From Polytrichum commune (taxonomy: Eukaryota; Streptophyta; Polytrichopsida; Polytrichales; Polytrichaceae): DNA of 64,000 nucleotides. Shown here one piece after another: positions 2,229 through 61,641 of this stretch. Under the pieces are notes generated by a model that had not been told where the DNA came from, searched no databases, and worked only from the letters and a program-made list of their open reading frames with translations. The DNA lies in assembly GCA_950295325.1 (NCBI GenBank), contig OX485806.1, forward strand, positions 14,014,001-14,078,000. Reading direction: 5' to 3'. A program made the position numbers and the translations under genes. The stretch's first letter is position 1. Every line of letters begins with the position of its first letter.

Positions 2229-3533
2229 TCACCTAGCACGTCCTCTCAACATCCAAAGGTGGTCAATCAAATCATTTCTCAATGCAAAATGGGACTGTAC
2301 ATTCTCTATCTCTCTAGTCCCACTTTGCAAATCATAGAATGTGAAGGGGGAAGGGGTAATTGCCACTGGAGCTCCAAGATCAACAAGAGGCTCTAGGCCT
2401 AAATCACGCTCATCCTCTATAATCATGTTATGCATAATGATGCAAGCGATCATGATGTTCGTGATGACACCTAGATCCCAATGCCGCACTGGATTTTTGA
2501 TGATGTCCCATCGAGACTGTAAAACGCCAAATGCCCGCTCAACATCCTTCCTAGCACCCTCCTGGCACTTTGTAAAATGCTGCTTCATCTCACCTTGAGG
2601 CTCATGAATTGGGTGCACAAAACAAGACCAAGGTGGATAAATCCCATCAGTGAGCACGTAATACCGGGAGTAGACATGGCCGTTTACCTCGAATGTGAGG
2701 TCTTGCCCAGGACCCCGCAACATCTTCAACAAAAAAAGGGAACGGTCTAACACATTAATGTCGTTGTTTCCCCCTGGCAACCCAAAGAAGGCATGCCAAA
2801 TCCATAGACTCTGGTTAGCGACTGCCTCCAATATAATGCTCCTGTTCTTGTCCTTGTCTTGGAATTGCCCTTGCCATGCAACGGGGCAATTCTTCCAATT
2901 CCAGTGCATGCAATCTAAACTACCAAACATCCCTGGAAACCCCCGGTTCTCATTGATACTCATTTGCAAAACCAAATCGTCCCTAGATGGTTCTCTCAAG
3001 TATGTAGACTCAAAACAACCCCTTATAGCCACACAAAACCTCCTCATACACTCTTGGGCAGTGGACTCACCCAACCTACAATATTCATCGGTTGCATCTG
3101 CACCCGAACCGTATGCAAGCATGCGAAGTGCAGCAGTACACTTTTGCAACGGTGATAAGCTCAAGCGTCCACAAGCATCCAGTTTTTGCAAAAACCATGG
3201 ATCAAAATTGCCAACCGCATCCACAATCCTCAAGAACACCTCCCTCCGCATCCTAAACCGTCTCCTAAACACGCTAGGTCCATAAGTCGGGTTGTCCGAA
3301 AAATAATCAGTCACCAACAAATTATGATAGGTTTCCCTATCACGAAACACATTCTTCCTTCCAGGTACACTCCCACGAACCACGGGAGTAGAACTACATT
3401 GCCCCAAAATTTCAGATGACACAACATCAACCATCTGCATGAATAGCTCATTCTCAAATTCATCCTCCATGTCTTCTTCAAACCCTAAATCAAAACATAA
3501 GTTTCTCTCAAGCTCATCCTCCCAACTATCCAT
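2229..3533 (-). CDS. PIF/Harbinger DDE transposase (DDE_Tnp_4 type), intact
   Basis: An uninterrupted 434-aa ORF of the usual length for plant Harbinger nucleases. The frame stays open further upstream, but the first ATG is at 3533, giving an acidic N-terminus (MDSWEDELER). Candidate catalytic residues are D207 in GSLDCMHW, D258 in GGNNDINVL or D296 in YVLTDGIYPPW, and E332 in KDVERAFGVLQSRW; the HNMIIED segment after it is also typical. The enzyme should cut and rejoin element ends and make 3-bp TTA/TAA target duplications. With the open partner ORF at 1-1291 this looks like a potentially autonomous element, unlike the decayed Harbingers at 33-45 kb. Confidence 0.93.
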   Translation of the reverse strand: MDSWEDELERNLCFDLGFEEDMEDEFENELFMQMVDVVSSEILGQCSSTPVVRGSVPGRKNVFRDRETYHNLLVTDYFSDNPTYGPSVFRRRFRMRREVFLRIVDAVGNFDPWFLQKLDACGRLSLSPLQKCTAALRMLAYGSGADATDEYCRLGESTAQECMRRFCVAIRGCFESTYLREPSRDDLVLQMSINENRGFPGMFGSLDCMHWNWKNCPVAWQGQFQDKDKNRSIILEAVANQSLWIWHAFFGLPGGNNDINVLDRSLFLLKMLRGPGQDLTFEVNGHVYSRYYVLTDGIYPPWSCFVHPIHEPQGEMKQHFTKCQEGARKDVERAFGVLQSRWDIIKNPVRHWDLGVITNIMIACIIMHNMIIEDERDLGLEPLVDLGAPVAITPSPFTFYDLQSGTREIENVQSHFALRNDLIDHLWMLRGRAR

Positions 3534-5510: not shown

Positions 5511-5748
5511 TGAGAGCAATAGTTTGAATCCAAGAAGTTTACACTAGGGTTTGAGTCCAATGTATGAGAAATTGAAGTGATGCTAGTGTGACATCACTTT
5601 TCCGTCAAATCTCAACAATCCTCGTTGGAGATACACTCCTCCTAGTTTGAGAATCCTTTCTTCAAGCTTTGCACCCAATGTTGAGTCCACATGAAAGGTC
5701 CCTCAACAAGTGTGTTGGACCATGAGTTGTTGAATTTGGATAGTCTAA

Positions 5749-6223
5749 GGGCCACTTCACACACGAGACTGAGAGCCCGTGACCATTGCACTTCAAGCAC
5801 TCTCATTGGTGGAAAGGGCACAGCCGGTCCAAGATCGCTTCACAATACGCTTGAGGGACCAACGGAGTATGTGAATGCAAGATGGATGTAAAGTCTACAT
5901 GGATTCCTACGTGGCATCGAATGGATCATGTTTCATGGTCACTTGGACTATTTTTGAAAACCACCTTTTGGAGGTAGGCCTAACACAAAACCAGGAGACC
6001 ATGACACTTCGAATGCTTGCAAACATTGATTTATTCTATTTGATCATGTGCGAGGACCCGCATGAATAAAAATTCATTGAAATAGCATTCGGTTGAGGGT
6101 CTGGTCACATATGACTTCACATTACACTCGAGATCCCGTGACCACACCACGTGATTTTGGAGGTGTATTGGGACGGCCTTTTGGACCATGGTCACGGCTC
6201 TTGGCTCGTGTGTGAAGTGGCCC
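5749..6223. mobile_element. MITE-A copy 1, TSD TAA
   Basis: A 475-base element with TIRs GGGCCACTTCACACACGAG and its complement (CTCGTGTGTGAAGTGGCCC), flanked by TAA at 5746-5748 and 6224-6226. It has no ORF of note. Two further full copies lie at 44786-45283 and 59157-59655. The TIR start and 3-bp A/T duplication fit the PIF/Harbinger (Tourist-type) class. Confidence 0.92.
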
Positions 6224-8319
6224 TAATATTCATGCAATGATGATAGTCACACTGATCAAGTTGTCACGAAGGTTGTCATGATAGGATTGTCACATGACAG
6301 GGCCCACTGTCATCTCACCAAAGAGAAGGGGGGGGGGGGTAAATATTTCACCCTATATATGGAAAATAATAAGCAAACAAACCACTACAAGATTATTTGC
6401 CCCATCGTCGGGCACTAGCTTGCCCAAGAGAGAAAAAAAAACAAATAAATATAAGAAATAAATAAATTAATAGCAATGAAAGCCACAACAACTCAAATAA
6501 TTGTACTTTCGACCGACCAACTATGAGTTTGCTCGAATAATTGGATAACCTCCATCAACTCGTGACGAAATATTGGTGTCCCAAGATGGCCCCCGGGGAC
6601 GAGTGTCACGTCCTATAATAGTCATAAGTGACGTAAGAGTCAACCCCCTCCTCCCATCAAACTAAATGCATGTGCAAGGAGATGCTTCCGGGTTGTGATG
6701 CCGAACTAGAATTTTCCACCCGAAATTCGAATGTGTCTTCGGTAGAAGTAAGAATAATGTGTGGTGTGAAACTCCGTGTTTCCATGTGATTATTCGTTCC
6801 AAAAGGTTGAAGCACCGTTTGATATATATGATACGAGCTCGCTCATTGGCGAATGGTGTTGACATGCATGGCCTCAATAAGCCACACATAACATAGGTGA
6901 CTTGCTCACTTACACGCCTCCCAAGGTTCATCATGTTTTTGCCTACTAAGACCCCTCGATGGCCACCGCACTTTTCATGTGACAAGTATAGCACGGCATG
7001 GACAAAGTCATGCCACACATCATACATTGCTCATCGAAAGAAGGGATTTTTCCCTAAGCTTTTGCTTGGTGGGCCAGACCGTCATGGGGCTTGTGATTAG
7101 GGGCGGGTTCCCCAAGACCATGCAAAATGGCCATAGAAATTCTGCACACTTCCAACTAAGAATCGCTTACTGAATTCTGGTGTGATTGACAAAGGTTCGT
7201 CCCATGTGTAGCATAATACAACATTACTACGCAACTACGTGATGGGCTCTTTCCAAAGAAAGAGATTATGTTTCAGATGTTCTTGTATCTCACAAATGTT
7301 TGTCAAAAAGTTCACATTACATTGTTCGAGTGTTCCCCATGAACAGGGAATCAAAGGAGAGTTGTGCTCATGTGATACATGGTCCCGTGAAACGTAGCCA
7401 AGGAGTTTTGTAATGTTATGAAAGCACATCTTTAAAGCAAACAATGACTTATAGTGGTTTTTTTTTTTTTTTTTTTAATTTTTTTTTATGTATAGGTGCG
7501 TATTCAAGTTTGGAATAGTTTGCATGGTACAAGCATGGACTTGTAAATAAGGATGGTTTCCATGAGACCATGCAAAAGGACCACATACACATTGTCCAAG
7601 AATTATTTTTGGACATATTTGTTCAAAATCCTAATGTTTCCAAGTCCAACCGGTTACATGTTGTGATCGTTCGGGTTTTCTTTATTAATTTGTGGTATAT
7701 TCGTTAGATTCCTCTACGAACAATGGGTGATTTTCTTGAAGCCCTCAACTTCAACCGGTTATTTCTCAAACTCGACCGGTTCATCTATAACTAGTGGTTG
7801 CTCGGTTCTTCCCGTTCATTGCACATAAACCTTTTATTATTAAAACTAAAAGTCAGTTATGGAAATCAATGTGATAGATTAAAAAATCAAGTGTACCATA
7901 AAGTATGCCTAATGTGGGCAATGACCTATTCACCAAGAAAAAACAAACTCAACTCTCGTGTTCACTAGAGTTGGAGTTTGCTAATGTGGTTATGTAATTT
8001 CTACTACTTTGTGACCAAACCCTTGGATGTTTAACTGCCTATAGGTACTCAAAAGACAATATTACCCTAAAAGATGTAAAAAACTTATTATATATACCCA
8101 AGTGGTATTAAAGCCGGTGATATCATCTCAACAATCGTTTCATGTTCTTTGGCTTTTGTGTGAACCAAAAGATGTGTAAGTAGGGTATGAAATACGGGGA
8201 GGATGTGTGGTAAAGGTTAAGTTATTGATTTCTATTGTCTTTCCACGTGTGACCATCACGAGTGTCTTCCACTCGTGATGGCAAGGTTCAACTTTCCATA
8301 TGATCTAAGGTATTGTGGG

Positions 8320-24097: not shown

Positions 24098-25018
24098 GGC
24101 CAGTTACCCAAGCTGATTGATTTCCATTGTGAAATCCGACACCAAGGCCTTCCTTTTCCCCACAAGAAACTTGAAGAGATTTGTTTCGGAGCCCCAGGAG
24201 CTCCTCAGAACTCACAAACCTCACTCATGGACAAAAGTCTGAGGAATCACAAGAGACTGACTCAAGTCACAACAGTTTGGTCCATATGGGGTCCCAAGTC
24301 CCACTCATGTGCAGCAAGTCCCAACATGGAGACAACGTCCCAAAGTTTGAGCCTCAAGAAACCATTAAAGTATGGCTTATATCCATTGAAGTTGAATCTC
24401 GATTATTTTATGCAAAGATTATTCTCGAGACTGTGGTGAGAGTTGGGTCTGGCTTTTTGATTGGTCCAACTCTCAACACAACTCCTGAGCTTTATCCCCA
24501 AAAAAGTGTTGCTATGTAAGTATCCATGTCATACTTGGGACTCGGGACCCGTGCGAAGTGGTAAGTCCCAACTTCCATGCTCTGACTCATGGACAAAAGT
24601 CTGAGGAATCACAAGAGACTGACTCAAGTCACAACAGTTTGGTCCATATGGGGTCCCAAGTCCCACTCATGTGCAGCAAGTCCCAACATGGAGACAACGT
24701 CCCAAAGCTTGAGCCTCAAGAAACCATTAAAGTATGGCTTATATCCATTGAAGTTGAATCTCGATTATTTTATGCAAAGATTATTCTCGAGACTGTGGTG
24801 AGAGTTGGGTCTGGCTTTTCGATTGGTCCAACTTTCAACACAACTCCTGAGCTTTATCTCCAAAAAAGTGTTGCTATGTAAGTGTCCATGTCATACTTGG
24901 GACTCGGGACCCGTGCGAAGTGGTAAGTCCCAACTTCCATGCTCTCAACAACTACGATTTCACATATTCACCTCAAGTGAATTGAGACTTAGGATTTGGA
25001 ACCCGTGTGAACCGGCCC
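24098..25018 (+). mobile_element. MITE-B copy 2 with internal 362-base tandem duplication
   Basis: 24227-24588 and 24589-24950 are near-identical tandem units (period 362), differing at a handful of sites. The right end reads GTGTGAACCGGCCC followed by TTA at 25019-25021, as in the element ending at 5239. A possible decayed left TIR is GGGCCAGTTACCC at about 24098. ORFs that repeat in both units are by-products of the duplication. It sits about 0.4 kb upstream of the PLP gene start. Confidence 0.8.
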
Positions 25019-33434: not shown

Positions 33435-33606
33435 GGGCCGCTTTACACCTAGAGGCCGGGCCAATTTCCCTTGAGGCCGATTGCACAAAATTTCAGCCTT
33501 TTTTGGGTTGGAGGCCGGCCTCTACTACACATTATAATAAGGGGTACCACACCCCCGGCAGGTAAAGCTAATGGGCCCCCTCCATTGGCCCAGCCCGGGG
33601 CCGTAC

Positions 33607-36600
33607 CACAGTCCGGGGAGTTCTGTAGAGAAACCGGCTAATTGCCGAGGTTTCTTGAGGTGGCTCGGATTTTTGAAATGTCTCCCGGAAGTGGTCTTAA
33701 TAGTGCAAAATTTATCGGTTGATAGCCCCCATTTCGTAATGTGTTTAGGCAATTAGCCGGCATTTTTTTTTCTCGTTTAGGCAATTTCCGGAAGGTCTAA
33801 AGTGTGGCCGGTTTTAAATTTTGGTGGTAGATGTGTCATTATCATTAATTCAATTTTTCTTGAAGTGTTTAGGATTTATTACTTTGGGCATTCACTCTCC
33901 ATTTATTGTCATCTAAATAGTATCCTTAGCAGGATTTGAACCTAGCAAAGCCCCTACCATTTAGGGCTAAGGATTTAGCCTTCGGAAAATACAAGCACCA
34001 CAAAAGGGTCAAAGTATTATCCGGAGGCTAGTTAGTATTGAAAAGTCACAAGATTTGCGTATCATTGCCGTTAGTATCAATTGCACCAAACGAACAAGAC
34101 ACACCACTCACACTCACTGTATTAGGAGAATTCAAATAAGAAGAAGGATTAGCATACAAAAAACGGTACTTACTGTCTTTCTTCCAAAGTGGGATAGCGT
34201 CACAAATTATGTCATCCACCCCCTCATCTGGCTCTTCCAAAGCAATTCGCAGCATTGCATCGAGATTCCTACTACCCAACTTATTTCTAACTTTGGTTTT
34301 GATCAAATTTTGCACATTGAAAGCACGCTCACATGTCGCAGTAAAAACACATTGCACATGAGCTAACGTTGCAAGAATAAGGAGGTTGGGGTACCGTGCT
34401 TGCAAAGCATGATTCCAAGTTATCATGCCCCACAAATCCCTGAAATTCTTATCCCCCCCCCATTCCGTAGTGCATTGAAGCTTGAAGGCCAAGAATTCAC
34501 GCTTACATACGGTTTGGTCGACAAGAGAAGGAGGCTTGAAGCTTCCATGTGAGCGGTCTACTCCATAATGGCACAACAAAGTATCTAATTTTGAAACACA
34601 CCAATTTTGCAAGCCCACTTGCCCTGAAGGCATATTAGTTGGATTCAAAATCTTAAAATAAGAAATCAAATCATTGTCACAAAAACGTACATCAAGGGCA
34701 GAACAAACAGATTGTGCAAATTTTTTCTGGAACATCAATGTCTCTTCCAAGTCAGTACCAAGCCTAGAACGTGTCATATGGAAACTGTGAAACATGGAAC
34801 CTCTTACCTCAGATTGCAACCTTTTCAAGTATCCACCGTGAGGACCGTAATCAGACAAAACATGAAAACCAGTGGACTCGTTAAAGACATCAACATTCAA
34901 ATCACAAGAATCGACAATAAACATCATACAAATTTGAGCCACTTCAGTACGCACAATACTGCCCACAGTGGTAACATCCACGAACTTCAGCTGAAATACC
35001 TTTGACAACATAGCCAACGAGTGAAGAATGTCAGCCAAAAAATACATAATATAAATATATTTAAACTGACCCAATTTTTTTAAAACAGACTTTACAACAA
35101 CTTCACTTTCATCAACATCTTGGAAAAAAATGAGGACAGATTCAAGTGAATCACAAAGGGAACTAATTGCCTGCCATCTCCTTAACCAAGGAATTTTGTG
35201 ATAACGCTTCATTGTTTTTTTGGAATCAAACAATTGTTCTTACAAGGTTGTTAATGCATGTTTGCGCTTACTAGATTTGTGAAAAAAAACTGGAAATGAA
35301 ATTTATCAAAACATCTATTTCAGTGGATATAACCTTACAATCCGGTGTTTTGGCATCCAAAGCAACAAGATTTGTGTGATGAGCGACACAATGACAGGCT
35401 AAGAGGAATGGATTAACTTCTTTGAGTCGTATTGAAACGCCGGTTTGAGAACCCACCATGCTGTTGGCTCCATCACTACCAAAGGCCACTAACTTGCATA
35501 AATCCAAATCCCACAACTTTAACTGGGAGATGACACAATCAAAAATTGAAGCTACATCTTTTTTACCGCCATCCAACTGCAACAGCCCCAAGAAAACAGT
35601 TATGGGCAGACCCTCCTCTATAATGGTTGCAAACATAACAAGATGTCCAGTGGCACTAATGTCTGTAGATTCATCAACCATAATGCCAAAAAATGAAGAA
35701 TTACGAATCCTACAAACTATTTTCTGCTGGACTACTATGGATATGCAAAATATCAAATCACTGCAAGCTTTTTCATCCTGATACATACTAGCTGTAATAG
35801 GAGCATTGACAAACATGAGCAATTTACAGATAGCAGGAAATTTGGAATACGGGAGAGACTACTTCCCTGTGAAGTAGGCGGCTTTGAAGAGGGTTTGTAG
35901 AGCTTCATCACAAGCACGCTGACCAGCAAAAATTGTTTTTTCCATGATTTTCTCTCCGCTTGTGGATGTCCAAACAAGCCTTTGATGTACGTTCGAATGG
36001 GAATGGTCTGTAAATGCGCTGACTTTAAAAAAATTTGATCCGTCTTTGGCATAGACAGAGCGGCCATCTTTCTCTCTACAAATCTTACAAAAGATTTTTC
36101 CCTCCGAAGTAGAGTAGTCTATCCACTTGAACTGAGTCGCCCATTGCTCCTTCCATATAGCCCGATTTGTAGTGGGACTTTGAACAGAGATGTTATTCTC
36201 ACTTGTGGAAGAATCAGTGTCGCAGCTCTTAGCAAAGTAGGCGTCCCTGATCGACTTCTGCCGCTTAGCCATAATAGAACCTGAAATCAAACAGAAACAA
36301 TTATGCTTCATAAACAAAATGAAAAAGAAAAAGAAAAAAAGAAACAAAAACAAGTGAAACCTACTTGTCGCCACGCCCCGCCACGTCCCGCCGCTCCCGC
36401 TCCTTCTCCTTCTCCGTAAATTTTTCCCTTTAAGGATGCCTCCTCAGTTCAAGCCAAGGGTTATGGGACTTCGCAACACAGAGTTCACTCACAGACTACG
36501 CAACATACAGTTCGCTCACAGACTTCGCAGCACAGAGCTTTCTCGGCTCCCAATCTAACAGAATCCAAGCACAATCCAAGCTTTTTCCTCGGCTAACAGA

Positions 36601-37307
36601 ATCCAAGCTTTCTGCCTCAACTTTCAAGCTTTCTGAGCTAAGAGTTCGCACATGTTCTGAGCTTTCTGAAGCTTTTTGCCTCGAGTGTATGATTTCTCCT
36701 AGGTTTTCACAGGTTTCTAAGAGTTCGCACAAATTTCTCCTCCTAAGAGTTCGCACATGTTCTCACAGATTTCTCATCTAAGCTTTCTAAGAGTTCTCAC
36801 AGGTTTCACAACTCAAGAATTTCACAACTCACAAATGCTTCAACAACTCACAATGCTTACGACCACACAACAACTCTCTCACACAATTAGGGTCCAAGCC
36901 TCCAAAGTGCTTGTTTGTGATACCAACAACAAAACCTTCACTACTACGGAGTCAAAGTTGTGGCGGGAAACAATGGGAGCCCTAAACCACAAGCCCCTCT
37001 AACCCTAAACCACAAGCCAACAAGGCATAGTCTCCAAGACTCCAACTATGCATAGTATTGAAAACCTTACCTAAAAATCATATATTTGGTCGGCTGCCCG
37101 CCATGAAATTTTTTTTTCAATCGGCAATTTGCCGTGGATGCTCTAGGGCAGCTTGCCGAAATGCCGGCATTTTTTTTCCTAATCGGCCCATTTCCAGAAA
37201 CCTTCATTTTCTTCCGGAACCCCTTCCTAAACTTTCCAAATTCATTCGGAAATTCTCAAAATCAACCGGCTAGCTCGTAACTAACTGCCGGCACTACCCA
37301 TTCATTG
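33607..37307. mobile_element. hAT element inserted near the left end of Harb-1
   Basis: A hAT transposase relic occupies 34046-36272. GGGCCGTAC occurs directly before (33598-33606) and directly after (37307-37315) the proposed element, consistent with the 8-bp hAT target duplication GGCCGTAC. Imperfect terminal similarity is seen: CAGTCCGGGGAGTTC (33609 onward) against the complement of the right end, TAGTGCCGGCAGTTA, followed in both by an ACCGGCTAATT-like block. Ends are therefore good to about 15 bases. Confidence 0.7.
34046..36272 (-). pseudogene. hAT transposase (TTF zinc finger, DUF4371, hAT dimerisation), disabled
   Basis: The start ATG is at 36272 (MAKRQKSIRDAYF). A TTF/BED-like zinc finger follows (KIFCKICREKDGR ... 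DHSHSNVHQ), then the DUF4371/RNase-H region (FGIMVDESTDISATGH, VAFGSDGANSMVG, CHCVAHHTNL), then IPWLRRWQAIS and the C-terminal dimerisation part (FTATCERAFNVQNLIK). This is the ZMYM/TTF type of plant hAT. Three lesions are visible: an in-frame TAG at about 35859-35861, a one-base frameshift in a T run at about 35284-35290, and a TAA at about 35236-35238 where the family has a sense codon. It cannot make full-length transposase. Confidence 0.88.
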
Positions 37308-37771
37308 GGCCGTACTACCTCACCTGCGGCAGTTGGGGGCGCGGGAATCCTCGTTGGCCCCTGGAAGTCGGCCCTGCAAGTTCCAGGGGGCGGAGGCTGG
37401 CCCTCCTACCCCCCGGCGCCAGGCCTCGTCCTTTTCTACAGGGTGGACAGGGGAGCTGCGGGCATGCGGTCCACGGTGGCATTTTCAAAGACTCCCAACA
37501 GTCTGCAGCAGCTGCGGCCTCCTCCCTTTCGACCAGCTGCTCCCGGCTCCAGACCCTGTTCCTCACACGGCTCCAGACCATGTTCCTCACACTGCTGCAG
37601 ACCCTGTTCCTCACGAAGCTGGTTTAGGCTACCATCAAGTGCAGCTCCAAGTCCCCACCGAATTGCGGGTTTTATTTTTTATTATTTTTTAATTCCTATT
37701 TTGGTTTTGTGTGGGTTTTTTTGCTTCCTTTCAACAACTTCCTATTTTATTGTTTATTGGGTTGTGCTTTC

Positions 37772-39674
37772 CATGGAATCGCAGAAGAATGGTGGGGAAG
37801 CGGGTGGTGCCAGTGGTAGTGTTGTGACAGGTGGAGTCCCCCTTGTTGCTGTCTCTGCAATTTCTGGACAACGTCCTCCCATTCCTCCCGCACCATTCTT
37901 TCATGGCTTTCCCGGGCCGGGGAATCAATTACCGTTTCTATATTCCCATTCCTACATGCCTCCAATTCAAGGGTTTGGGTTTGGTGCTCCCGCCCAAGGC
38001 ACTCCTACCGCCACAATTGATCTCACGGGTGGTTCACCAAAACGATGCCCCCAAGATACCGTCATTGACCACTCCATGTCAACCAAGAAACGGAGAGCCC
38101 CCCGGAAGAAACTTGAAATTGTCGAATTGGACGATAGCAAAGACGATGTTGAGCTCTTGAAGAATGCTCACCATTGGAGGGACCATTGGGTCATTCACCT
38201 CATCTCGGTACGGGGGGAGATGCAAAACACATTCAACTCACCGCCAAAGCAAGGTGTGCCTCTTGAATTTCTTTTTTCCCTTTTTTTTGTACTTTCATTT
38301 TTGCTTTTGCTTCTTCGTGTGTGCATCCCAATTGCAACCTGCTTACTTGTTTCCCTCATTGCAAAAGTATGCACATCTATTGATTTCATTTGTTTCTTTT
38401 TTCACATGGAAGGTGTAATTTGTCGCCTCTAACCCTAAAAGCATTATATTCGTTAATTTGAGACGATGGTTTGGGTAGTCCTACCTAAACCATGTTGATA
38501 TGAGTTAAAATTTGGGTTCTTCATATGAACACCCGCTTCAAATTATTTGCATCTTCTGCCATTCTCCAATATCTATGTGATTTTATCCATGTTCTTATAT
38601 TTGTGACTATCTCTAAATGCCAAAAAAATCCCAAATTAACGCAGCCTGCCCTGTAACGCGTCTGTATCTGAATTCAGATTGTAATATGATCAGTATACAT
38701 AGACTGTATACTACAGCTTGTATATTCCATGTCTCTGCAGTCAATACATTCTGCCCAACACTGTAATACAGTGCATATTTTCAGGTCTGCAGACTGTAAC
38801 CATCACTTGTCTGCCTGCACATTTTATTGCTGGTGCAGGGTGTAATGTTGTCTGCCTGATTACTACATGTTGTAGCCGACTCTGCAGGCACAATATAGTC
38901 TGCAGACTGTATTTTACAATCTGCTGGTACAGACTGCGCTGCTGGCCATGACAAGTAGATTGCAACGCATTTTTTTTTTGGCGAAATTAAAACAAAATCG
39001 GTTTTTTTTTTGGATTTAGGAAATGTGCAATGTGATTTGTCGGTTGCAATTAATAGGTTCAAATTAGTCATGCTTAAAAGCTACTTGAATTTATTTAAAA
39101 TATTTTGATTTTTTCAATCTTCATATGAATGAGAAATGTTTTGATTCAACATTGTTTTGATTCGACATTGTTTAGGAATTCAAAAGGCATTCACCAAATA
39201 TTCATTCAACGTGTGCGTATTGAAATCATGGCTTGTTGTTTGTAATCTTGTGTAGGTGTGGACAATTGGTCCCGGTTGCACCTGAAACTTGTGTCCCTCT
39301 GTCCGGATTTTCCAAATGACAGCGAGGCTTGCAGGACGAAATGGAGTTCCATTTACAATGACTACAAGGAAGACAAGGCCACGAACATGCGCTCCGGATC
39401 CGAACGTTCGGAAAAATGTCGTTGATACCAACTTGTGGACGAGTTCATGTCCGACCAAACGCTTGTTGTGTCACATGCACACGCGGGTGCAACAGATCCA
39501 GATGGTCCTAAAGCCGCAAGCGCATTATTCACCATCGGCACGGTACACAAGAGTGGTGAGAGCACATCGAAATCTCCCGAGCCTAAGCGTAAGGATGACA
39601 TTTTTCTAGAGCGATGCCTTGGTAGAATTGAGGAGAATAGCAAGAATCTTATGGATAATTTGAAGGCAACATGA
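37772..39674 (+). pseudogene. Harb-1 ORF2 (SANT/Myb-like partner), one nonsense codon
   Basis: Exon 1 begins with ATG at 37772 (MESQKNGGEAGG), has a Pro-rich region, a basic patch (TKKRRAPRKKLE) and the typical WRDHWVIHLISVRGEM...NSPPKQ motif, ending about 38251 at AAG/GTGTGC. Exon 2 starts after TTGTGTAG at about 39254 (VDNWSRLHLKLVSLCPDF, then RTKWSSIYNDYKED) and runs to TGA at 39672-39674. A TGA at 39421-39423 interrupts SEKCR-YQLVDEFM where the family usually has Trp. Otherwise frame is kept, so decay is light. Confidence 0.8.
38640..38960. repeat. CTGCAGACTGTA-rich tract in the Harb-1 ORF2 intron
   Basis: Short words CTGCAG, AGACTGTA, TCTGCCTG, CTGTAATAC and their complements recur irregularly over about 320 bases. 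Similar in texture to the tract at 1340-1680 in Harb-0. Confidence 0.5.
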
Positions 39675-39746
39675 AAATGACTTTATTGATGAGCATGCAA
39701 CAAACAATGTAAAAACTAGTAGAAAAGCTTTAAAAACATATTATCC

Positions 39747-41156
39747 CTATTCCTCGTCATCGATGAAAATTTGTGCAATGCACGCCTTTGTCTTTGTCAT
39801 CCAAAGACTCCTTACAATGCTATTCCGTCTTGCCGATAACTCTTTGAATGATTTTCCGGTAATGCTCATTGTAATTTCAAATGCCATAGCGTCTTCTTGC
39901 TTTATGTATTATAGAGTTTCTCTTTATTGGTCATCTATGCCGGCCAAACCCTACAATGTCAAGTTTACCACAGCCATTCGCTCGCGCATGGTTGAGCCCG
40001 GTTGTTTTGGTATTGCCAGTCCGTTGTGCACCTCCTCCGTGGTCTCCCGCATCCATTCTTTTCTCCAAAAGGTGTCCCCGAAAATTGTGCACATGTTGTG
40101 GAGGACCAAACACGTGGAAACCAAGTCGGGCACATTCGTTAAATACACATCCACTCTCTTCAAGAGAATTCGCCATCTACCTTTGAACATGCCGAATGCT
40201 CGTTCCACGCACATGCGTGTAGAACTTTGGACAAAGTTCCAATGATATTTCTCGCGTGAAATACCGTCTTTGTGGCCCTTAAAGGAAACCAACATCCAAG
40301 GTCGACATGGGTACGCAACATCGCCAACCAAAGTATATGGCGAGAGCTTGTCTGACTCGCAGTACTGGCCGATTGCAGTCCTACCCCACAGGTTAGCATC
40401 GTGCATCGAACCCGCCCATCCTAAGTCGAAATCCTAAAACAAACATTTGGCTGATACAACGTCCTGCAAAAGGATTGAATGGAATCCTTTGCGGTTGTAA
40501 TAATCTGGAGCATGTAGTCGGGGTGCAACAATGGGTATGTGAGAGCCATCTATTGCACCCACCACATAGGGGATCTGGTGCAAGTCTTTAAATTCATGTG
40601 CATATTTTTCCATAGTGGAAGGAGAAGGTCAGTTGATGAATTTCCTTAGCAAATTTTTTTTATGACACCACAAAATTGGGAGATGATTAGTTGACTAGAA
40701 GACATGGCAATTTTGTACAAATCGGCAATGCACTGCCTATAATTACATGTGGCCAATCTAGTAATTGATACAACAACTTTCACCTGAACAGGAATGGCCA
40801 AACGCATGACCGTGTCTCGTCTCTGCAAGTCGGGTACGAGAGCACTATACAAGTACTCAAAAGTCGAGACGTCCATACGCATGCGCCCTTTGAACTTCCT
40901 CGCATTGAATAAACCCAACAAGTTATGGTCGAAGAAACTTGTTTTAAACAACCCTCGATCATGAGCCCATAAACGTCGTTGTTGTCTCCCACTCCACAAC
41001 TTCAACCCGTGCATTGCAAGTGTCAAACCTAATTGTTGCCAGTGCCACAATAAAACCGCCTCCCGCCTCCTTGTCTCTCGAAATACACTCTAGAATGGCG
41101 AACAAAGAGAGCTGAAAAATTAGCAAAATGCAGAACCTATGGACATCGGGGTCCAT
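39747..41156 (-). pseudogene. Harb-1 transposase, disabled
   Basis: Reading the minus strand from about 41156, Harbinger blocks appear in order but in shifting frames: RRDTVMRLAIPVQVKVVVSI, a block reading PYVVGAIDGSHIPIVAP near 40530-40590, then GDVAYPCRPWML, RMCVERAFGMFKGRWRILLK and CLVLHNMC, with a terminal AQIFIDDEE and stop at 39747-39749. Lesions include an in-frame TAG at 40434-40436 just before DFDLGWAGSMHDAN and frame changes near 40640 and 39950. The key D and E motifs survive, so decay is moderate. Confidence 0.85.
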
Positions 41157-41690
41157 GTTGGCAACAACCCTAGAAAAAATCTATCAAGAAATTGTGGTGA
41201 TATATCCTAAACCGTAAACCTTGAGGAGGCTTGTGGAAAGAGAATGCAAGGTTATGGAATGATGAAGCCCCTGGTCTGCTCTGCTCCCGGCCCCTGGTCT
41301 GCAGAGACCGGGAAGCTTCCCCGCAGGTCCCATAAACCGGCCCTGTCATATTTCCCTCTCCCGGCCGTGAGGCTCCTGGTACCCCTGCCGGCTAGGGTCC
41401 GGCCTACTTTGCTAGGCTTAAGGCTAGCCTTTCGCCGGTGGAGCCCTGCCGCAGGTGTGGCTAGCCCCTAAGATTATAACGGGGGCCAATTTTCCCATAT
41501 GTAAAGGCCCTCGGGCCAAGAAGTCAAACCGATTAAATAAATTTAGCAAAATTTTAGTCCCTCTTTATTTATTTTCATTGTCATTTGTACAGGATGGAAT
41601 GAACATAGACGGAAGATTTTAGTTGCTCTTGTGTTCTTCATGGGCGTACGACATGTTATGGCGGTTGTTGCAATTTTGTAAAAAATTGCT

Positions 41691-42898
41691 TTGTATGAAC
41701 ATTATGTTGCCATGACAATGGTGTTTGCTACGATGATTGTGGAGAGTAGTTTGTCTAGGAGGACACGGAGTATCTGGATGTATGACCGGAGTATTATTTT
41801 TGCGGACAGATTGTTATTTGGATGTTATTCGGTTAAGTTATTCAAACAACATACAAGGTTACTTCCCGAAACTTTTGATTATTTATACGGTGTCTTATCT
41901 CCATCATTAAGTCGTAAGGATACAAATTTCAGAGCATCTATTCTTCTTAGAAACCGGATTGTTCTTTATTTGAATAGACTTAGTAGTGGTAATTCATTAT
42001 GCGGTTGTGCTGAAAGTTATGGAATTCATGAAAGTACTGCTTCTATCATTATAAGGGAGTTTTGTGCAGCAATTGAGAAACATTTAAAACCAGTAGTAAT
42101 TGAAAAACAATCTAAAGCTACATTGAATAGAATTGCAACCGAGTTTGAGGAGCTTAGGGAATTACCTTATTTAATAGGAGCGGTTGATGATAGTCATATA
42201 CCTATTATTGCTCCTCCTATAGATCCTACTTCATATTATTGTAGAAAATGTTTCTATTCAACTCTACTTCAAGGTGTAGTGGATAGCAAATGTAGGTTTT
42301 AGAATTATGATTTTGGATGGGTTGGGCGCTACCATGATTAGACTTTGTTCCAAAATTCTGATATTGGGAAAAAATGATGAAATGTGAACTATTGCCTTAC
42401 AAACTTATGGGTGATGTTGCTTATCCAATGAGACCATAGTTCTACTCTCATTTTAAAGGTGGAAAAGATGGATTACTTAGAGCAAAGGCACATTGGAATT
42501 TTATCCAATCATAAACAACAATGGTGGTAGAAAAAACTTTTGACGTATTAAAAGGGAGGTGGAGGATACAATTGAAAATAATTGACATGCCTCTCCAACA
42601 TGTACCTAAATTGGTTACTACTTGCATTTTTCTTCACAACTTGTGTATAATACACCGAGACAAATTTGATAATGAATGGACAAAAGAAGGAGAAAGAATC
42701 ATGCATGGAGAGAGTACAAATCAACTTAGACATCTAGAAAATGTAGATATATTTATGGCGGCTACACAAGCTACAAAAAATATGAGAAAATATCTAAAAA
42801 TTGACGAGGTTGAATCAGAATCTATGCAAATTGAAGACCTTGAAGAAACTGTGATAAATGTAAGAGAAGATGAAAATGAGAGTGTGAAGGTTGTATAA
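41691..42898 (+). pseudogene. Harb-2 transposase, disabled
   Basis: Blocks in order: RLLPETFDYLYGVLSPSLSR, NRIVLYLNRLSSG, LPYLIGAVDDSHIPIIAPP, stop, NYDFGWVGRYHD, KLMGDVAYPMRP, AHWNFIQS, VVEKTFDVLKGRWRIQLK, CIFLHNLC, and an acidic C-terminus ending at 42896-42898. TAG codons at 42300-42302, 42339-42341 and 42437-42439 each sit where the family usually has Trp; a TAA lies near 42510 and a frame change between 42345 and 42400. The catalytic Glu context VVEKTF departs from the usual VERAF. The frame stays open upstream of 41691, so the true start is unclear. Confidence 0.85.
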
Positions 42899-43058
42899 AC
42901 AAAAAAGACAAAGAAGTTAGGATAAAAAATTTGTTGGTGCAAGCAACACAAACACATGAATTACTAGCTCAATATTTTTGGGAAGCGCATTTGAGGATGG
43001 AGGGTAAAATTCTCTTCCCTCGTGATCATGATGCATCTGATTCGAAAGATGATTAATT

Positions 43059-44266
43059 CTAAAGTTTGTCTATAAGCCTATCCATCTGTCGGTCTATCAT
43101 CTCTAATAAAGTATTGGTTTTCTCAAAATTATTTACCATGACTGAACTGTTTTCGGCCATTTGTGCGAAAACTCCATGGCATCTTCTTGAAAATTCTTCT
43201 TGTCCACCTTGATTGTTGAATTTGGAGTCGTTGTCATAGCTGGAATTGGAGTGTCATTTGAATACAAATCATTATCATTGTATGTGGTATTGTCTTTGAC
43301 ACTAACCGAATCACTAGTGGATGTCGTCACATGCTTCATTACGGTTCCAATTTGATGTCATTATTGATCAAAAGAATAATAAAACTTACAAGGGTGACAA
43401 TCTGATCCTGAAATTACATTTGTCAGCTTATCTTCTTTGCATAACTTGTACAAGGTATTGAAATTTTTTTGCAACCCTCGGAAGTTCGGTTCAATCTAGG
43501 AATTACTGCAATCAAACGAGCATGCAATTTCAACCATGTATCCACCCCTGCACATAACACGGGAGCATCATAAGGGCGATAAATTACAAAGTTGATTCTA
43601 GTTTAATTACTACATATGGGATGAAGTAAACATGGTGGAAAACAATGTAGAATTGGTAGTACGAGGTATACCTTGCCTCGCGCGCCCGAGGTGGAAGGAT
43701 GAAACCTTAGCATCCACAACTTGCTCTCCCAAGGCTTGCCCCAAGCATTAGGGGGGAAAGGGGGGGCTTGGGGGCGAGAGGTGAAGGTCTTTAGAAAGGC
43801 CAAATTGGCCAAATCTGAAATCTAAATTTTTTTTTCAAAAAATTTAGGTTTGCAAAAATCTTACTTTGTTTTTTTGCGTTCTTAAAAAATTCAGGTTCCA
43901 TCTCACCGCGCATTGCAATCATTGTCTTCACGTCACGATCCTTCCAATTCTTTGAGCTGAATTCTTCATCTTCTTCCACCTCCTTCACGTTTTTTTTTCG
44001 AGGTTTTTTTGAAGTTGTGACTTTTTTTCTTCTTTCGGTGCTACTGGAGGTATAATCTGTACATCCTCATCCCCAATCTCTTCCGTAGCCTTTCTCTTCA
44101 ATTTACTTGCACACATGTCCATAATCAACGGAGGCGGAGGAGGAATATGATTTCCACAAGGTGGTTGAAAAAATTCGGGAACCCCTACACTACCTCCATG
44201 TTCTTGTAAAGGAGCTCGATAGGGTTGGAAAGCATGAGCTTGAGCACTTTGATACCTTTGCATCAC
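43059..44266 (-). pseudogene. Harb-2 ORF2 (SANT/Myb-like partner), disabled
   Basis: Read on the minus strand: MMQRYQSAQAHAFQPYRAPL, a Pro-rich stretch, a basic/acidic patch (KLKRKATEEIGDEDVQIIPP), a frameshift in an A-run at about 43990-44000, then WKDRDVKTMIAMRGEMEPEF and KNAKKQ, an intron, then VDTWLKLHARLIAVIPRLNR near 43500-43560 with further frame breaks, and a C-terminal heptad-like end (LLEMIDRQMDRLIDKL) with its stop at 43059-43061. Same order as the partner proteins of Harb-0 and Harb-1, but the most decayed of the three. Confidence 0.75.
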
Positions 44267-44785
44267 CTCATATACTTCACTAGAATTTCATCCACTCCTC
44301 TCTAAAGACCCCTTCATGCTAACCTTAGATACGGTAGCAACAATCTTGCAAGCGCAAAAAAAATTCAACAAGAAAAGCTCTAAGGAAAAAAGAAAAAAAA
44401 GACAGAGATAGAGAGAGAGCGAGAGAGGAGAGGATGAAGTCACGATGAACCATAAGAGCCGTTCAGATTTCCACATAATCCAACGGCGTTGTTTTGCTGA
44501 AAAAATAAAAAATTTATTGGAAAAAATATTTTTTTATTAAAATCTGACATTGGCCCCTAGGCCATGAATTGGCCTTCCATTTTCGGTGCACCCATTTGAG
44601 TGAGCTCGGGCCGTGTCAGACCATCTATTTTTTAATTAAAAAATTCATACCACCAAATCGGCCCGGCTTCTAGGTGTAAAGGGGTTGGGGCCGATTTTAG
44701 CCTTTTGGCCAATCACAAGTGAGGATTTCAAGCCTCTTATACAACGAATTGGCCCGGCCTCTAGGTGTAAAGGGGCCCTAACTTA

Positions 44786-45283
44786 GGGCCACTTTACACA
44801 CGAGACCGAGAGCCCGTGACCGGTACACTTCAAGCACTCTCATTGGTGGAAAAGGCGGAGCCGGTCCAAGTTCGCTTCACACTACGCTTGAGGGACCCAT
44901 GGAGTATGTGAATGCAAGATGGATGTAAAGTCTACATACATGGATTCCTACAAGGCATCAAATGGATCATGTTTCATGGTCACTTGGAATGTTTTAAAAA
45001 CCACCTCTTGGAGGTAGGCCTAACACAAAACTGGGAGACCATGGCACTCTGAATGCTCACAACCGTTGATTTATTCTCTTTTATCATGTGCAAGGACCCG
45101 CATGAATAAAAATTCATTGAAATAGCATTGGGTTGAGGCCCCGGTCACATATGACTTCACATTACACTTGAGAATTCGTGACCACACTATATGATTTTGG
45201 AGGTGTCTTGAGACGGCCTTTGGACTCTCTTTTGGGCTCTCACAATTTCATGGTCACAACTCTTGGCTTGTGTGAAGTGACCC
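44786..45283. mobile_element. MITE-A copy 2, TSD TTA
   Basis: A 498-base element beginning GGGCCACTTTACACACGAG and ending CTTGTGTGAAGTGACCC, flanked by TTA at 44783-44785 and 45284-45286. It starts only 8 bases after the right end of Harb-2. Same orientation as copy 1. Confidence 0.9.
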
Positions 45284-45286
45284 TTA

Positions 45287-48200
45287 ATGTAGATTCGTCT
45301 TTAATGGTTATTTTTTTAGATTGGTCCACTTCTGTTAAGATGATGTAAGGTCGAGGCATCTATAACCAATAAAATAAGAGAGTTTGCATCTGTTTAGGAG
45401 GAGTAATAGTGTGGAATCGTTTTTCTTGCAAAGAGGAATGAATTCTAAGGAGAATGTAAATAAATAAAACGGTGAATATGGAAATTGCTATAAAGTTTGA
45501 AATGGTAAAGTTAGGTAACACATAGTTGATTTAAAGGTTCACCCATAACCACTCAACTCAATGTTAATGTTTGGCTACAATAGTAGTCAAAACTCTCATG
45601 AGGATACTCGATCACAAGCCACCACCACCTAACTTGAACTCCATTCACCTAAAAATAATAAATCTCATCCATGTTGGCATTACATGACCCTCGTGAGTAA
45701 TGAAATGGACATGGTCGACTCTGGATGCCTTGACCTTAACACGCAATTAAGGTAAAGGGTGTTAGAGCCAACAACCTAGAATTTTACATAATAAGTACAT
45801 CTTGATTATGAGAATGTTCACTATGTGAACAATAAGGCCCCCCACAATTACAAGTGACAACACAATTTTCAATTCAAAAGTTTGTATTTATTTCAATATT
45901 GTGTGTGTGTGTGTGGGGGGGGGGGACAAAGACTTGCAATACACCCAGTCTTTTTTGTCTACCTAGGAATGAATTTTTGATTCAAACAACTACCATGTTC
46001 ATGCCAAATACCTCAAGGTATTTGATATATTTGGCACATGGTTTAAGGTGTTGCTACCTAAAGGTAGATGACCCATTTTCAACTAGTTCACCAATTTAGC
46101 ATATCCGTGGTTTAAGTATAATCAGAGAAAATTTCCCCAAGTAGAGAAATAAAAATTAAAAATTGATCCATACCATGACATGACATGACATGACATCATT
46201 GATTAGAGATTGATATTGTGCTACATAAAAATGAGTTGGCCTAAGCTGTGAAAATGGGGTGGTGGTCATGAATGGGTAAGCTACCTTACTACAAGATGGT
46301 TAGCAAAACCAAATCGAGTTCAGAGCCATTTTCTTGCCAGAGCCACTTCCCTCATAATTTTCAAAGCTCATATGAATATTTTATTCATTGTCAAAGTGAA
46401 GATGCTCATGCTCATAAGTGGTCAGTCATGTTGACTATTGAGCCTAGAAAAGTTATCATATTTTGAGCACATAATCCAATTCCTTTCAAACACATGTATT
46501 TCTGGTATCCATTCTTGGAGCCACACCCAACTATATACTACTCAACTATAGATGTCCAATTCAGATAAGTAACATAAGTAGGCATGTTAATCTTACCATA
46601 GAGTGTTGTTTGGTTCAACACTTGGAGTGTTGATAGCTACACCCTACACCCTAAATTCTTTACCTATATTTGATTGGTGTATGGTTTGGTGAGGATCACA
46701 AAACAAATACCATAATGTAGACATGTACCATAATGTATCAAAATTTCTCAACCTTTAAATTGATATACCTTATTACGTGCAGTGCCCACATGAGTAGGAT
46801 GGTCATGAAATAGCATTCGGTTGAAGACCCGGGCATGTACATTACACTTGAAGGCCCAAGGCCACACAAAATTCAATTTCAATTGTCCGTGGATCTATGT
46901 TCTTGGTTGATTTTGCTCACAATTACATGGTCATGGCCCATTGGCGGCTCAAACCCAAGGCTTTGACTTGGATTCCATGGGAACTTCGAGGTCAAGCCGC
47001 CCAAGGATGGGTGACCTTTCTAGCACTTGATTTCCAATGCACCCTACCACCTATGATCCACTCAATCTTAGTGAGGACTATCTTGGTGAACTAAATATTT
47101 TCAACGTGGAAACCTAGAGGCTTGCCGGAGGGGGGGGGGGGGGAGGGGGAGAGACATGTGTTGTCAGCTTGTCCATGGATGTTAAGGTATTCACCTCCAA
47201 AGTAGGTAGTAGTTGTCAGAGGCCCTCTAACTCTTGTAGTGCTCATTATGAGATGACATATAGACTCAAGGGTTGTTGTACACAAGAAGCCAAGGCCAAT
47301 CTGAGGCACTTACATGCGTATTCCTTGTATGTGATTCGTTTAACCCATTAAGCCAACACCAAGGCCTTTACATGATGGAGTCAAGGCCATTCCCTTTAAA
47401 TTTGTATTCTTATGATGTTAAATCATAATCTAGCGCACTAAAGACAAAATTGGACATTACCTTGGAGAAGAGAATTGGATCAGACCAAAATGGAAAGCCA
47501 ATTTGCTTCCTTGGGGCCATGTTAGAGCTTCCTCCCTTCTTGGCATGAGTCAACATTTTGTGTGAAACCGCCCTTACACCAACTTGAAAATGAAGCAACA
47601 CCAATATTCATGCCAATGCCAACATCGGAGTTGTCTTTTTTTCTCGGTCATGGCCCTTGACCATAAGGTGGACGTGCTCAAACCGAACATAGCAATAATC
47701 AAGACACCTATGTTTGAGTGGTACGTGGTTAGGTGTGAATCTAAGAACGGACATTAAAAAAAAAAAAAATGTGTTTAAAAAGATTGGACCACATGCTCAA
47801 AATATGCTAACCGTTCTAGGTTTGATAATCAACATGCTTGTGGGAACCTATATGACCACTTAATGAGCATGAGAATCTTCACTTTGACAATGAATGAGAT
47901 ATTCATAAAGAACTCCAAAAACTACAAGGCAAATGGTGCAATTTGGTTTCACTAATCATCTCACATTAATTGCGTGTTTAATACCCTATAAGAGGTGGGT
48001 GTAAAGAGAAAAGTATCCATATAAGGCATATCTACCTTAAGATAGATGGGTCTTGAAAGGTTACTTTCTAGACTAGCCTGCTCTTTTAGGATATGAAACA
48101 TGTGAATAGTTCAAGATGGCTAGCAATTCCAAATCAAAGCCATAGTCACTTTCCTCATGATTTTTGGAGGGCATATAAATATCTTATTCATTATCAAAAG

Positions 48201-48799
48201 TGAAGATTCTCATGCTCATTAAGTGGTCATATAGGTTCCCACCAGCATGTTGATTATCAAACCTAGAACGGTTGGCATATTTTGAGCATGCGGTTTAATC
48301 TTTTTTAAACACATGTCTTTTTTTTTATGTCCGTTCTTAGATTCACACCTAACCACATACCACGCAAATCTAAAGTGGCCAAATGAGATAAGTGACCGAA
48401 TTAGGCACATCTACCTTAGTGTAAAGTGGCCTTCAAGCGCATATGGGAGTAGCAGGGACGTGCTTGTCATGCATTCATGGATCCTGTTACCGAACTTACA
48501 TGGATTTGGGTTTCTTCCTTTGATTTAATTGTTGCAGCAGCTTCAGATTTAGGTCGTCTCTTGAATGGATCTTGTGTTTTTGGTATGCTTTTGCAGGGAG
48601 TCTTAACTTTTGCGGTACAAATGGCAGTTCGATTGCAGAAATCATTCCAAGGTTGGTGCAAGCACACAGTGCCTGATAAGTTACAAGGAATCAAGCTCAG
48701 TTCTCCAGTCGATAGATAGGTATCATAGAGCATACTCTTCCACGATGCTGCTGAACACTTTGGGAACACTTTCAACCATGGATTACAACCAGATAATTT
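45287..48799. other. Gene-free stretch with MITE-C copies and simple repeats
   Basis: No supported gene. It contains a GT-run passing into a G-run (about 45900-45925), a GACAT pentamer repeat (46174-46196), a MITE-C copy at about 46277-46600, a MITE-A-like fragment near 46790-46860, a G-run at about 47129-47146, and the inverted MITE-C pair at 47688-48434. Confidence 0.6.
47688..48434. repeat. Inverted pair of MITE-C copies (fold-back)
   Basis: The left arm (about 47688-47990, minus orientation) contains 'ttaggtgtgaatctaagaac'; the right arm (about 48024-48434) contains its complement 'gttcttagattcacacctaa' at about 48335-48354, and other blocks pair in mirror order ('gagcatgagaatcttcactt' against 'aagtgaagattctcatgctc'). 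A transcript across it could fold into a long imperfect hairpin. Confidence 0.8.
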
Positions 48800-59153: not shown

Positions 59154-59156
59154 TTA

Positions 59157-59655
59157 GGGCCACTTCACACACGAGCCAAGAGCCGTGACCATGAAATTGT
59201 GAGAGCCCAAAAGAAAGCGCCCAAAGGCCGTCCCAAGACACCTCCAAACTCACATAGTGTGGTCACGGATCCTCAAGTGTACTGTAAAGCCATATGTGAC
59301 TGGACCCTCAACCAAATGCTATTTCAATGAATTTCTATTCATGCGGGTCCTCACACATAATAAAATAGAATAAACCAATGGTTGTGAGCATTCAAAGTGC
59401 AAAGGTCTCTTGGTTTTGTGTTAAGCCTACCTCCAAGAGGTGGTTTTTGAAAAGAATCCAAGTGACCACGAAACATGATCCATCCGATGCCATGTAGGAA
59501 TCCACGTAGACTTTACATCCATCTTGCATTCACATACTCCATGGGTCCCTCGAGCATAGTGTGAAGCGAATTTGGACCGGCTCCACCTTTTCCACCAATG
59601 AGAGTGCTTGAAGTGTAATGGTCATGGGCTCTCGGTCTCATGTGTGAAGTGGCCC
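59157..59655. mobile_element. MITE-A copy 3, inverted, TSD TTA
   Basis: A 499-base element beginning GGGCCACTTCACACACGAG and ending ATGTGTGAAGTGGCCC, flanked by TTA at 59154-59156 and 59656-59658. Its interior is the complement of copies 1 and 2. It sits at the edge of repeat family G copy 3. Confidence 0.92.
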
Positions 59656-61641
59656 TTATTAAGAGTCAAGACCCATCCACAATATGGCTCAAGTCCCATG
59701 TACCCCATCGAACCCATCCATTTCCTTTAGAAAAGTTGTTGGGATCATGCATTCTCCCCTTTGTGAAAGATCCGAGTGGCATGTATCCGACATGATCACA
59801 AAGTAGATGGGGTTGGCCATGACCCATTCCAACATGACCACATAAATAAGCACGCGAGAGTGTGTGGAACCGGATGGTTGTGCCTCCAATGCCATAATCA
59901 CCCGCTACTTTGTATAGGTTGCACCGTTCTCTTCACCAATAAATGCATCCATGATGACCTTCACAATTGGGCACTCATCGGATGCCATGTGGTGTCCTCA
60001 TCAATGCATACTCATGTAAATTTTCATTTTATTAGTAGTACCAAAACAAGGGTTAATGGTTGATCCACATAGAGGCACCTTGCTATTGACATTGGTGACA
60101 TCAATGATCCCAATTGATGACAACCCTTGTTTCCTTCCACATGCAACAAGTGGTTGTGTGGGATGTGTACACGGGGTTCAACTCTAGGGCTTGTGTGTCT
60201 TGTGTGGTCACTCTCTTGGTTGAGCACTTGTATTGGAATGGAATATGAAAATCTTTGTAACTGTGAATTGGGTCCATACATACATTTGTTTTACAGCTAG
60301 ATTGTACGATGTGCTCAAAATTTGTCAGTTGTTGTGGGTTCGATTATTAACTCGTTTGGGAGGACATGTATGATCACTCAAAGGAGAAGAGGAACCTCAC
60401 TTTGACCTCGTATAACTTATGGATCATAACTTTGATTCTACAACTTGAAACAATAGTATGCGTGGTTTTTGTATAGTTGTTGACCAGATAAGATGATATC
60501 TTATTCGATCAACTGGTCAAAATTGTTTGTGGAGTTGGAAGTGCCCACAAACAAGGCCCGTAAAAGAAAGAAAAGAAGAACCAACATCAATGTTTTTTCA
60601 ACAACTAACTTACAGTAGGAGCCCACATACCTTATGCAATAACCAACGAATATTTTTTTTTTTGTCTTTCTCTTCTTTTTTCCATGATTTACTCACAACA
60701 ATGAACAAGGAGAAATTTAAGCCAACTTGGTCACTATCCTTACTTTCTTATTATCAATTGGTTATTCATTTAAATAATTCAATTCATTCTTGCAGTTTAC
60801 TTTGGATAGTAAAATCTCCAAAACTATTGTTTCAATTCATTTCCTAGAGTTTTGATTTTGGGCTGGTAGTTTGGGAAAATGAACCAGTTCATGTGTAAGT
60901 ACATCTAACATTGTCTTTTAGTGTCATAAGGTATTTTACAAGTATTGTCACCCCAATGGACATTCAATTCATCCAAACCTCAATGATCGAAACAAAGTTT
61001 GGTATATTTTGCATCCTAACATTCTTGTAATGGAATGTTGTCATAAATGAATGAAACTTCGATGAAAATCCACTTAGTAAGTGACAGTGAATACAAAATT
61101 ATAAGTCCATAATGCCCAAAAAAATTAACAAGGAATGATAAACAATGTTAGGTTTGCATTTATTGTTTAGTGGTGACATTACACAGGCGGTTTTAAGTTA
61201 GTATTGCGTAAGACAAATAGAATCGGTGACACTAAGTTAAATACAATGTTTAGTGTAGAAGCCGGTTATCCACGTTCATTGATTCACGGCCGCCTTTGGC
61301 ACCTTTTGTATGAACACTTGAACACCTTTCCCAACCACCAAGGTGGGGGCTTAAATTGGTGACTCTTGCAATTTGTTGAGTCTTTCTCATCATTAACATG
61401 CTCGAGCACGCAACCCACCCACATTTTGTGGTGAATACAAAACGTGGAGCCGGTATACTTACAAATCACAAGACTACTTGTACTCCTCTATGTAGTGAAG
61501 TGTCATGCATTTCAACTTCACACTCATGCAATTTTAGGAGTTTTGTACGATGATTGATGGACAATGATGTGATGTGGTAAGGAAGTTGCCCATTCCCACC
61601 GATTATTATTGTTCTTTTAATTTTGGGTGCCTTTGTTGGCA

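Follow-up and report, generated by a model that had tools for sequence, protein, structure and literature searches.

A three-level nest of a hAT element and two Harbinger elements in Polytrichum commune

The locus described here raises the question of whether three DNA transposons were inserted one inside another, in which order, and whether the position of both inner elements near a left end reflects a targeting preference. The window, i.e., the whole stretch of DNA that was analyzed, comprises 64,000 nucleotides (C4:14014001-14078000 of a 408-Mb assembly), and all copy searches were run in the window's own genome. We consider it almost certain that the three-level nest (hAT in Harb-1 in Harb-2) is real and that it arose by three independent cut-and-paste insertions. 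The elements are nested, both inner ones have their own target duplications, and the order of insertion was Harb-2, Harb-1, hAT. All three elements also occur at other places in the genome, so the nest is not a product of chance.

Outer element and its uninterrupted copies

After subtraction of the inserts, Harb-2, Harb-1, and the hAT measured 3413, 4219, and 3701 bp, in line with the ordinary sizes of ~3.4, ~4.2, and ~3.7 kb given in an earlier, sequence-only reading of this stretch. The outer element has the following features:

33435-44778: Harb-2 (PIF/Harbinger type), outer element, 3413 bp without inserts; based on TIRs, uninterrupted copies, and DDE_Tnp_4
33435-33540, plus strand: left 106 bp of Harb-2, with the TAA that Harb-1 duplicated as its last three bases (33538-33540); other copies continue directly into the sequence from 41472 on
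41469-44778, plus strand: second TAA (41469-41471) and right part of Harb-2; copies are continuous across the join
41682-42898, plus strand: Harb-2 transposase region, fragmented into open frames 41682-42302 and 42515-42898
44655-44684, plus strand: subterminal TIR-like repeat of Harb-2, a family feature

The 32-bp TIRs of Harb-2 (33435-33466 and 44747-44778) differ by one mismatch, exactly as had been read from the letters. The sequence-only reading had also proposed aligning the joined flanks of the interrupted elements with other genomic copies. For Harb-2, the query consisted of 285 bases (33435-33540 plus 41472-41650) and gave 883 first-look candidates, of which 40 were scored. The join was spanned in 39 of the 40 scored matches (85-95% identity), and the sole nonspanning match was the window itself, aligned from query base 104 onward. 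Copies L001-L005, L007, and L008, which had both ends in the fetched stretch, were 3386-3499 bp long and were free of Harb-1; these full-length copies reach the right end and also contain the TIR-like repeat. In L006 and L009, the join was intact and other insertions were present further in.

Since this query favors Harb-2 copies with good left ends, a second, center-anchored search was run (query 42880-43130; 52 candidates, of which 40, including the window, were scored). A left end from the outer-join search could be paired with 35 of the 39 other copies. Direct alignment reached the left end in L065 and L069, and the left ~980 bp were missing from L067 and L068.

In the transposase region, frame 42515-42898 matched the Pfam domain DDE_Tnp_4 as one fragment, barely over the cut-off (E 1.2e-5; 25.4 bits versus 24.8). 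Neither frame 41682-42302 nor 43985-44287, a candidate for the second gene (ORF1), had a Pfam match. The second gene of PIF/Harbinger elements, ORF1, is Myb-like. Two proteins are needed by these elements, according to an excerpt of PMC2836001.

Middle and inner elements

Features of the middle element are as follows:

33541-41468: Harb-1 (PIF/Harbinger type), middle element, 4219 bp without the hAT; flanked by TAA/TAA; uninterrupted copy L018
39951-41089, minus strand: Harb-1 transposase region, two open frames (39951-40433 and 40646-41089)

The claim that Harb-1 is flanked by TAA held: the triplet is present at 33538-33540 and 41469-41471. The TIRs are imperfect and start with GGGG. The middle-join query (33541-33606 plus 37316-37450; very common words skipped) yielded 11 candidates, all of which were scored. 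L018 (C6:1545754-1545960) matched bases 1-200 of the joined flanks at 86%, three partial matches (bases 38-179, 76%) crossed the join at 66/67, and one further candidate touched it weakly (bases 60-165). Over 4.1 kb, L018 carries Harb-1 without the hAT, at 90-91% in two long parts and at 79 and 81% in two shorter ones; it is also flanked by TAA and has two extra G at its left end. Among the 11 candidates, only the window and L018 matched the first 37 bases of the joined flanks, and the search revealed no further copy of the nest. Frame 39951-40433 matched DDE_Tnp_4 (E 5.9e-21; 75.2 bits versus a cut-off of 24.8) and Plant_tran (E 1.6e-5), and no Pfam match was obtained with frame 40646-41089 or with the candidate ORF1 frames 37281-38432 and 39286-39609.

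The inner element comprises the following:

33607-37307: hAT, inner element, 3701 bp, with ends CACAG...CATTG; ends and TSD length (8 bp) confirmed in other copies
33599-33606, plus strand: left hAT target-site duplication GGCCGTAC, 8 bp
37308-37315, plus strand: right hAT target-site duplication GGCCGTAC, 8 bp
34046-36443, minus strand: hAT transposase region, three open frames (35859-36443, 35271-35858, and 34046-35239)

The hAT had been described as flanked by GGGCCGTAC. This 9-base sequence is present at 33598-33606 and 37307-37315, but the duplication proper consists of the 8 bases GGCCGTAC. The additional G on the right belongs to the hAT as its final base: in four other copies, the element ends in CATTG and an 8-bp duplication specific to that copy comes directly after it. 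These copies (L021, L022, L026, and the first of two in L040) have the same ends and a perfect TSD each, so that together with the window five different TSD sequences are represented. When the first 200 bases of the hAT were used as a query (271 candidates; 40 scored, window included), 39 matches started at base 1 and one at base 2. Motifs of the CANNG type occur at hAT ends. Here, the left end reads CACAG and the complement of the right end CAATG, a likeness of CANNG type alone, with no longer repeat seen between the ends. Of the Pfam matches, zf-C17orf113 (E 1.7e-12) and Dimer_Tnp_hAT (E 6e-6) were over the cut-off, and DUF4371 (E 3.7e-7; 30.7 bits) was under its cut-off of 32.1. In L040 (C2:15688101-15694322), two identically oriented hAT left ends are separated by 5.9 kb; the first belongs to a short copy of ~1.2 kb with its own 8-bp duplication.

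The proposed order and superfamilies are supported, since uninterrupted copies and Pfam domains agree. Furthermore, in the Harb-2 and Harb-1 copies examined, homology ran across the joins, and none of them carried the same inner element as a fixed component at an identical position. The PIF/Harbinger element Harb-2 inserted first, adjoining single-copy DNA. Harb-1, a PIF/Harbinger element of another family, then entered Harb-2 at a TAA located 106 bp inside its left end, and the hAT was the last of the three, entering Harb-1 at GGCCGTAC, 66 bp inside its left end. Each insertion was probably the work of the transposase of its own family. The nest is presumably a relic, as judged from the hAT and Harb-2 transposase regions, which are spread over several frames. 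This decay is read from broken frames and is least secure for Harb-1, whose frames may be split by an intron.

Several other features were observed in the window. A MITE of ~500 bp lies outside the nest and starts 7 bp past the right end of Harb-2:

44786-45283: MITE, probably of Harbinger type by its ends; flanked by TTA/TTA

Further copies of the MITE are located at 59156-59656 and 5746-6226. In addition, there is a direct tandem duplication at 24220-24945 (364 bp, 98% identity) and a long, palindrome-like inverted repeat at 47713-48368 (79% identity over 672 alignment columns).

Position of the inner insertions near left ends

Both inner insertions lie close to a left end; the chance of both being that near either end is ~0.002, a value counted after the fact. 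One explanation is that Harbinger transposases in this genome are drawn to existing Harbinger ends, so that the TWA of an earlier copy is re-used and full-length elements such as Harb-1 land near the ends of others. In favor of attraction to ends, there are four exact head-to-head pairs of Harb-2 ends that share one TWA, versus ~0.0003 under random placement of 675 exact ends, an expectation that ignores the TWA requirement, which would raise it. These pairs, however, re-use the TWA beside an element and not DNA within its end, and we regard this explanation as improbable. The exact pairs are located at C2:8090971, C3:13836378, C3:29063424, and C7:13804747; L012 is one of the four, and L013 is a further head-to-head pair with a mismatch. 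Within Harb-2, 9 of the 137 TWA sites are located within ~110 bp of an end. For PIF/Harbinger elements, an excerpt of PMC2836001 describes a 9-bp extended target preference.

The sequence-only reading had gone further and suggested that both insertions were targeted to element ends or GC-rich terminal DNA. The GC content is consistent with this at first sight: it is 0.50 in the left 106 bp of Harb-2 versus 0.38 in the whole element, and 0.70 in the left 66 bp of Harb-1. However, it is 0.42 in a 52-base interval surrounding the Harb-1 insertion site, and the 60 bases upstream of 20 hAT copies had a mean of 0.42 (42%) and a maximum of 0.62, versus 0.70 in the window. The hAT flanks were those of 20 of the 39 other listed left ends, and the samples used for end preference are small. 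One of these hAT sites was 64 bp outside a MITE end, one was ~124 bp outside another hAT end, and a third had just an 18-base match to Harb-2.

The interruptions in the 39 other Harb-2 copies of the center-anchored sample also argue against such targeting, since none of the eight that were counted lay within 110 bp of an end. They were found at 378, 1029, 2706, 2927, 2932, 3023, 3042, and 3127 of 3413, the nearest being 286 bp from an end. An insert of 374-1592 bp, or a break followed by at least 565 unmatched bases, was counted as an interruption. In 24 of the 39 copies (L041-L064), the right half alone was aligned, and the left half was judged by the distance between the outer-join and center matches, which deviated from that of the window's joined element by -121 to +22 bases. 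In L051, L053, L054, L058, and L064, no continuation of the element past the break was found within the fetched stretch, which makes insertion and truncation indistinguishable. Left uncounted were the breaks of L067 and L068 (at 987 and 976), a short duplication in L005, internal deletions, and the right end of the diverged copy L066, which is unmatched from 3156, 257 bp from the end. Based on the 39 Harb-2 copies and the 20 hAT flanks, a preference for element ends or GC-rich DNA was rejected as very unlikely, and the nearness of both insertions to left ends is most simply, and best, read as coincidence.

Five of the eight counted interruptions (L051, L053, L054, L058, and L064) fall within 2927-3127, a 200-bp interval picked post hoc. 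Sequence found in the insert of L009 recurs in the tails of L053 and L064, and the L064 tail also has sequence in common with the insert of L006. L054 and L058 have common sequence just past a GA repeat, and their interruptions may represent one shared event.

Integrity of the outer element

The flanks of Harb-2 in the window, CTT on the left and TAA on the right, do not form a matching 3-bp TSD. A perfect 3-bp TSD was present in all 15 other copies printed with both ends (TAA or TTA in 13, TCA in L007 and L015). No paralogous empty site was found; in the window's own genome, the 200 bp flanking Harb-2 on the left had no match other than to themselves. As a query, the left 106 bp of Harb-2 gave 949 candidates, of which 40 were scored, and it had 100% full-length matches at 40 listed places elsewhere. 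Beyond these 106 bp, Harb-2 of the window differs from seven full-length copies by ~5-13%, depending on the segment. The mismatched TSD and the contrast between an identical left end and a diverged remainder would be expected if Harb-2 were a chimera, i.e., if the left 106 bp derived from one copy and the right part from another and the two were joined by recombination or gene conversion after the insertion of Harb-1.

We compared differences private to the window's copy by segment. There was 1 in the 106 bases of the first segment, 4 in the next 79, and 41 in the 806 after that; the step from 1/106 to 4/79 across the Harb-1 site, which points in the direction of a chimera, is not significant (Fisher p 0.17). 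The first 185 bp are also the best conserved in seven other copies, although these were chosen for a matching left end. In most segments, the window's copy is about twice as diverged as the seven others (41 private differences versus a mean of 17, 86 versus 42, and 80 versus 33); in the last segment the values are 19 and 13. Moreover, a single interrupted element is consistent with the TAA on either side of Harb-1 and with the contiguity of the joined copies, and the loss of 2 bp (AA) from a former left TAA would account for the TSD. After this comparison, a chimera built from a pristine left end retains low weight and is very improbable, and we keep to a single Harb-2 element interrupted by Harb-1. 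An assembly artefact joining unrelated copies can practically be dismissed, as misassembly would hardly yield two exact target duplications, each of its superfamily's proper length, together with base-exact joins in agreement with independent copies.

Nine of the 40 places with an identical left end were fetched. One was a long copy (L009), and eight (L010-L017) were short Harb-2 derivatives of 509-533 bp, with the left 106 bp identical in 8/8. This identity suggests that the derivative may have been amplified recently.

Discussion

The nest is a clean, base-exact case with a readable order, and it helps to place three transposon families in relative time in this genome. It leaves knowledge of transposon targeting unchanged; for the study of targeting, the head-to-head Harbinger pairs with one shared target triplet are a better entry.

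The nest is of an ordinary kind, and nested DNA transposons, including a Harbinger in a related Harbinger, have already been published. Nested MITEs of maize and rice were reportedly described by Jiang and Wessler in 2001; those are nonautonomous MITEs, whereas full-length elements of three families are involved here. Coding MULEs of the same two plants have nested insertions in more than one-third of the candidate coding elements, with Mutator-like hosts, unlike the hosts in our case (excerpt of PMC3903597). In carrot, DcSto1 hosts a nested DcSto2 or Tourist-like MITE (excerpt of PMC3695323). As in the present nest, DNA transposons of different families are nested there with TSDs of the right type, but they are MITEs, and two levels are described. 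Finally, MtPH-M-2-IIa and MtPH-A6-4-IIa of Medicago truncatula are nested PIF/Harbinger elements, and MtPH-M-2-IIa resembles the nest as a composite of two such elements with a further nested insertion (excerpt of PMC2213677). In Medicago, however, the two PIF/Harbinger elements are related and the further nested sequences are gypsy-like retrotransposons and an unidentified element with a 5-bp TSD, whereas the two Harbingers analyzed here belong to different families and the innermost element is a hAT.
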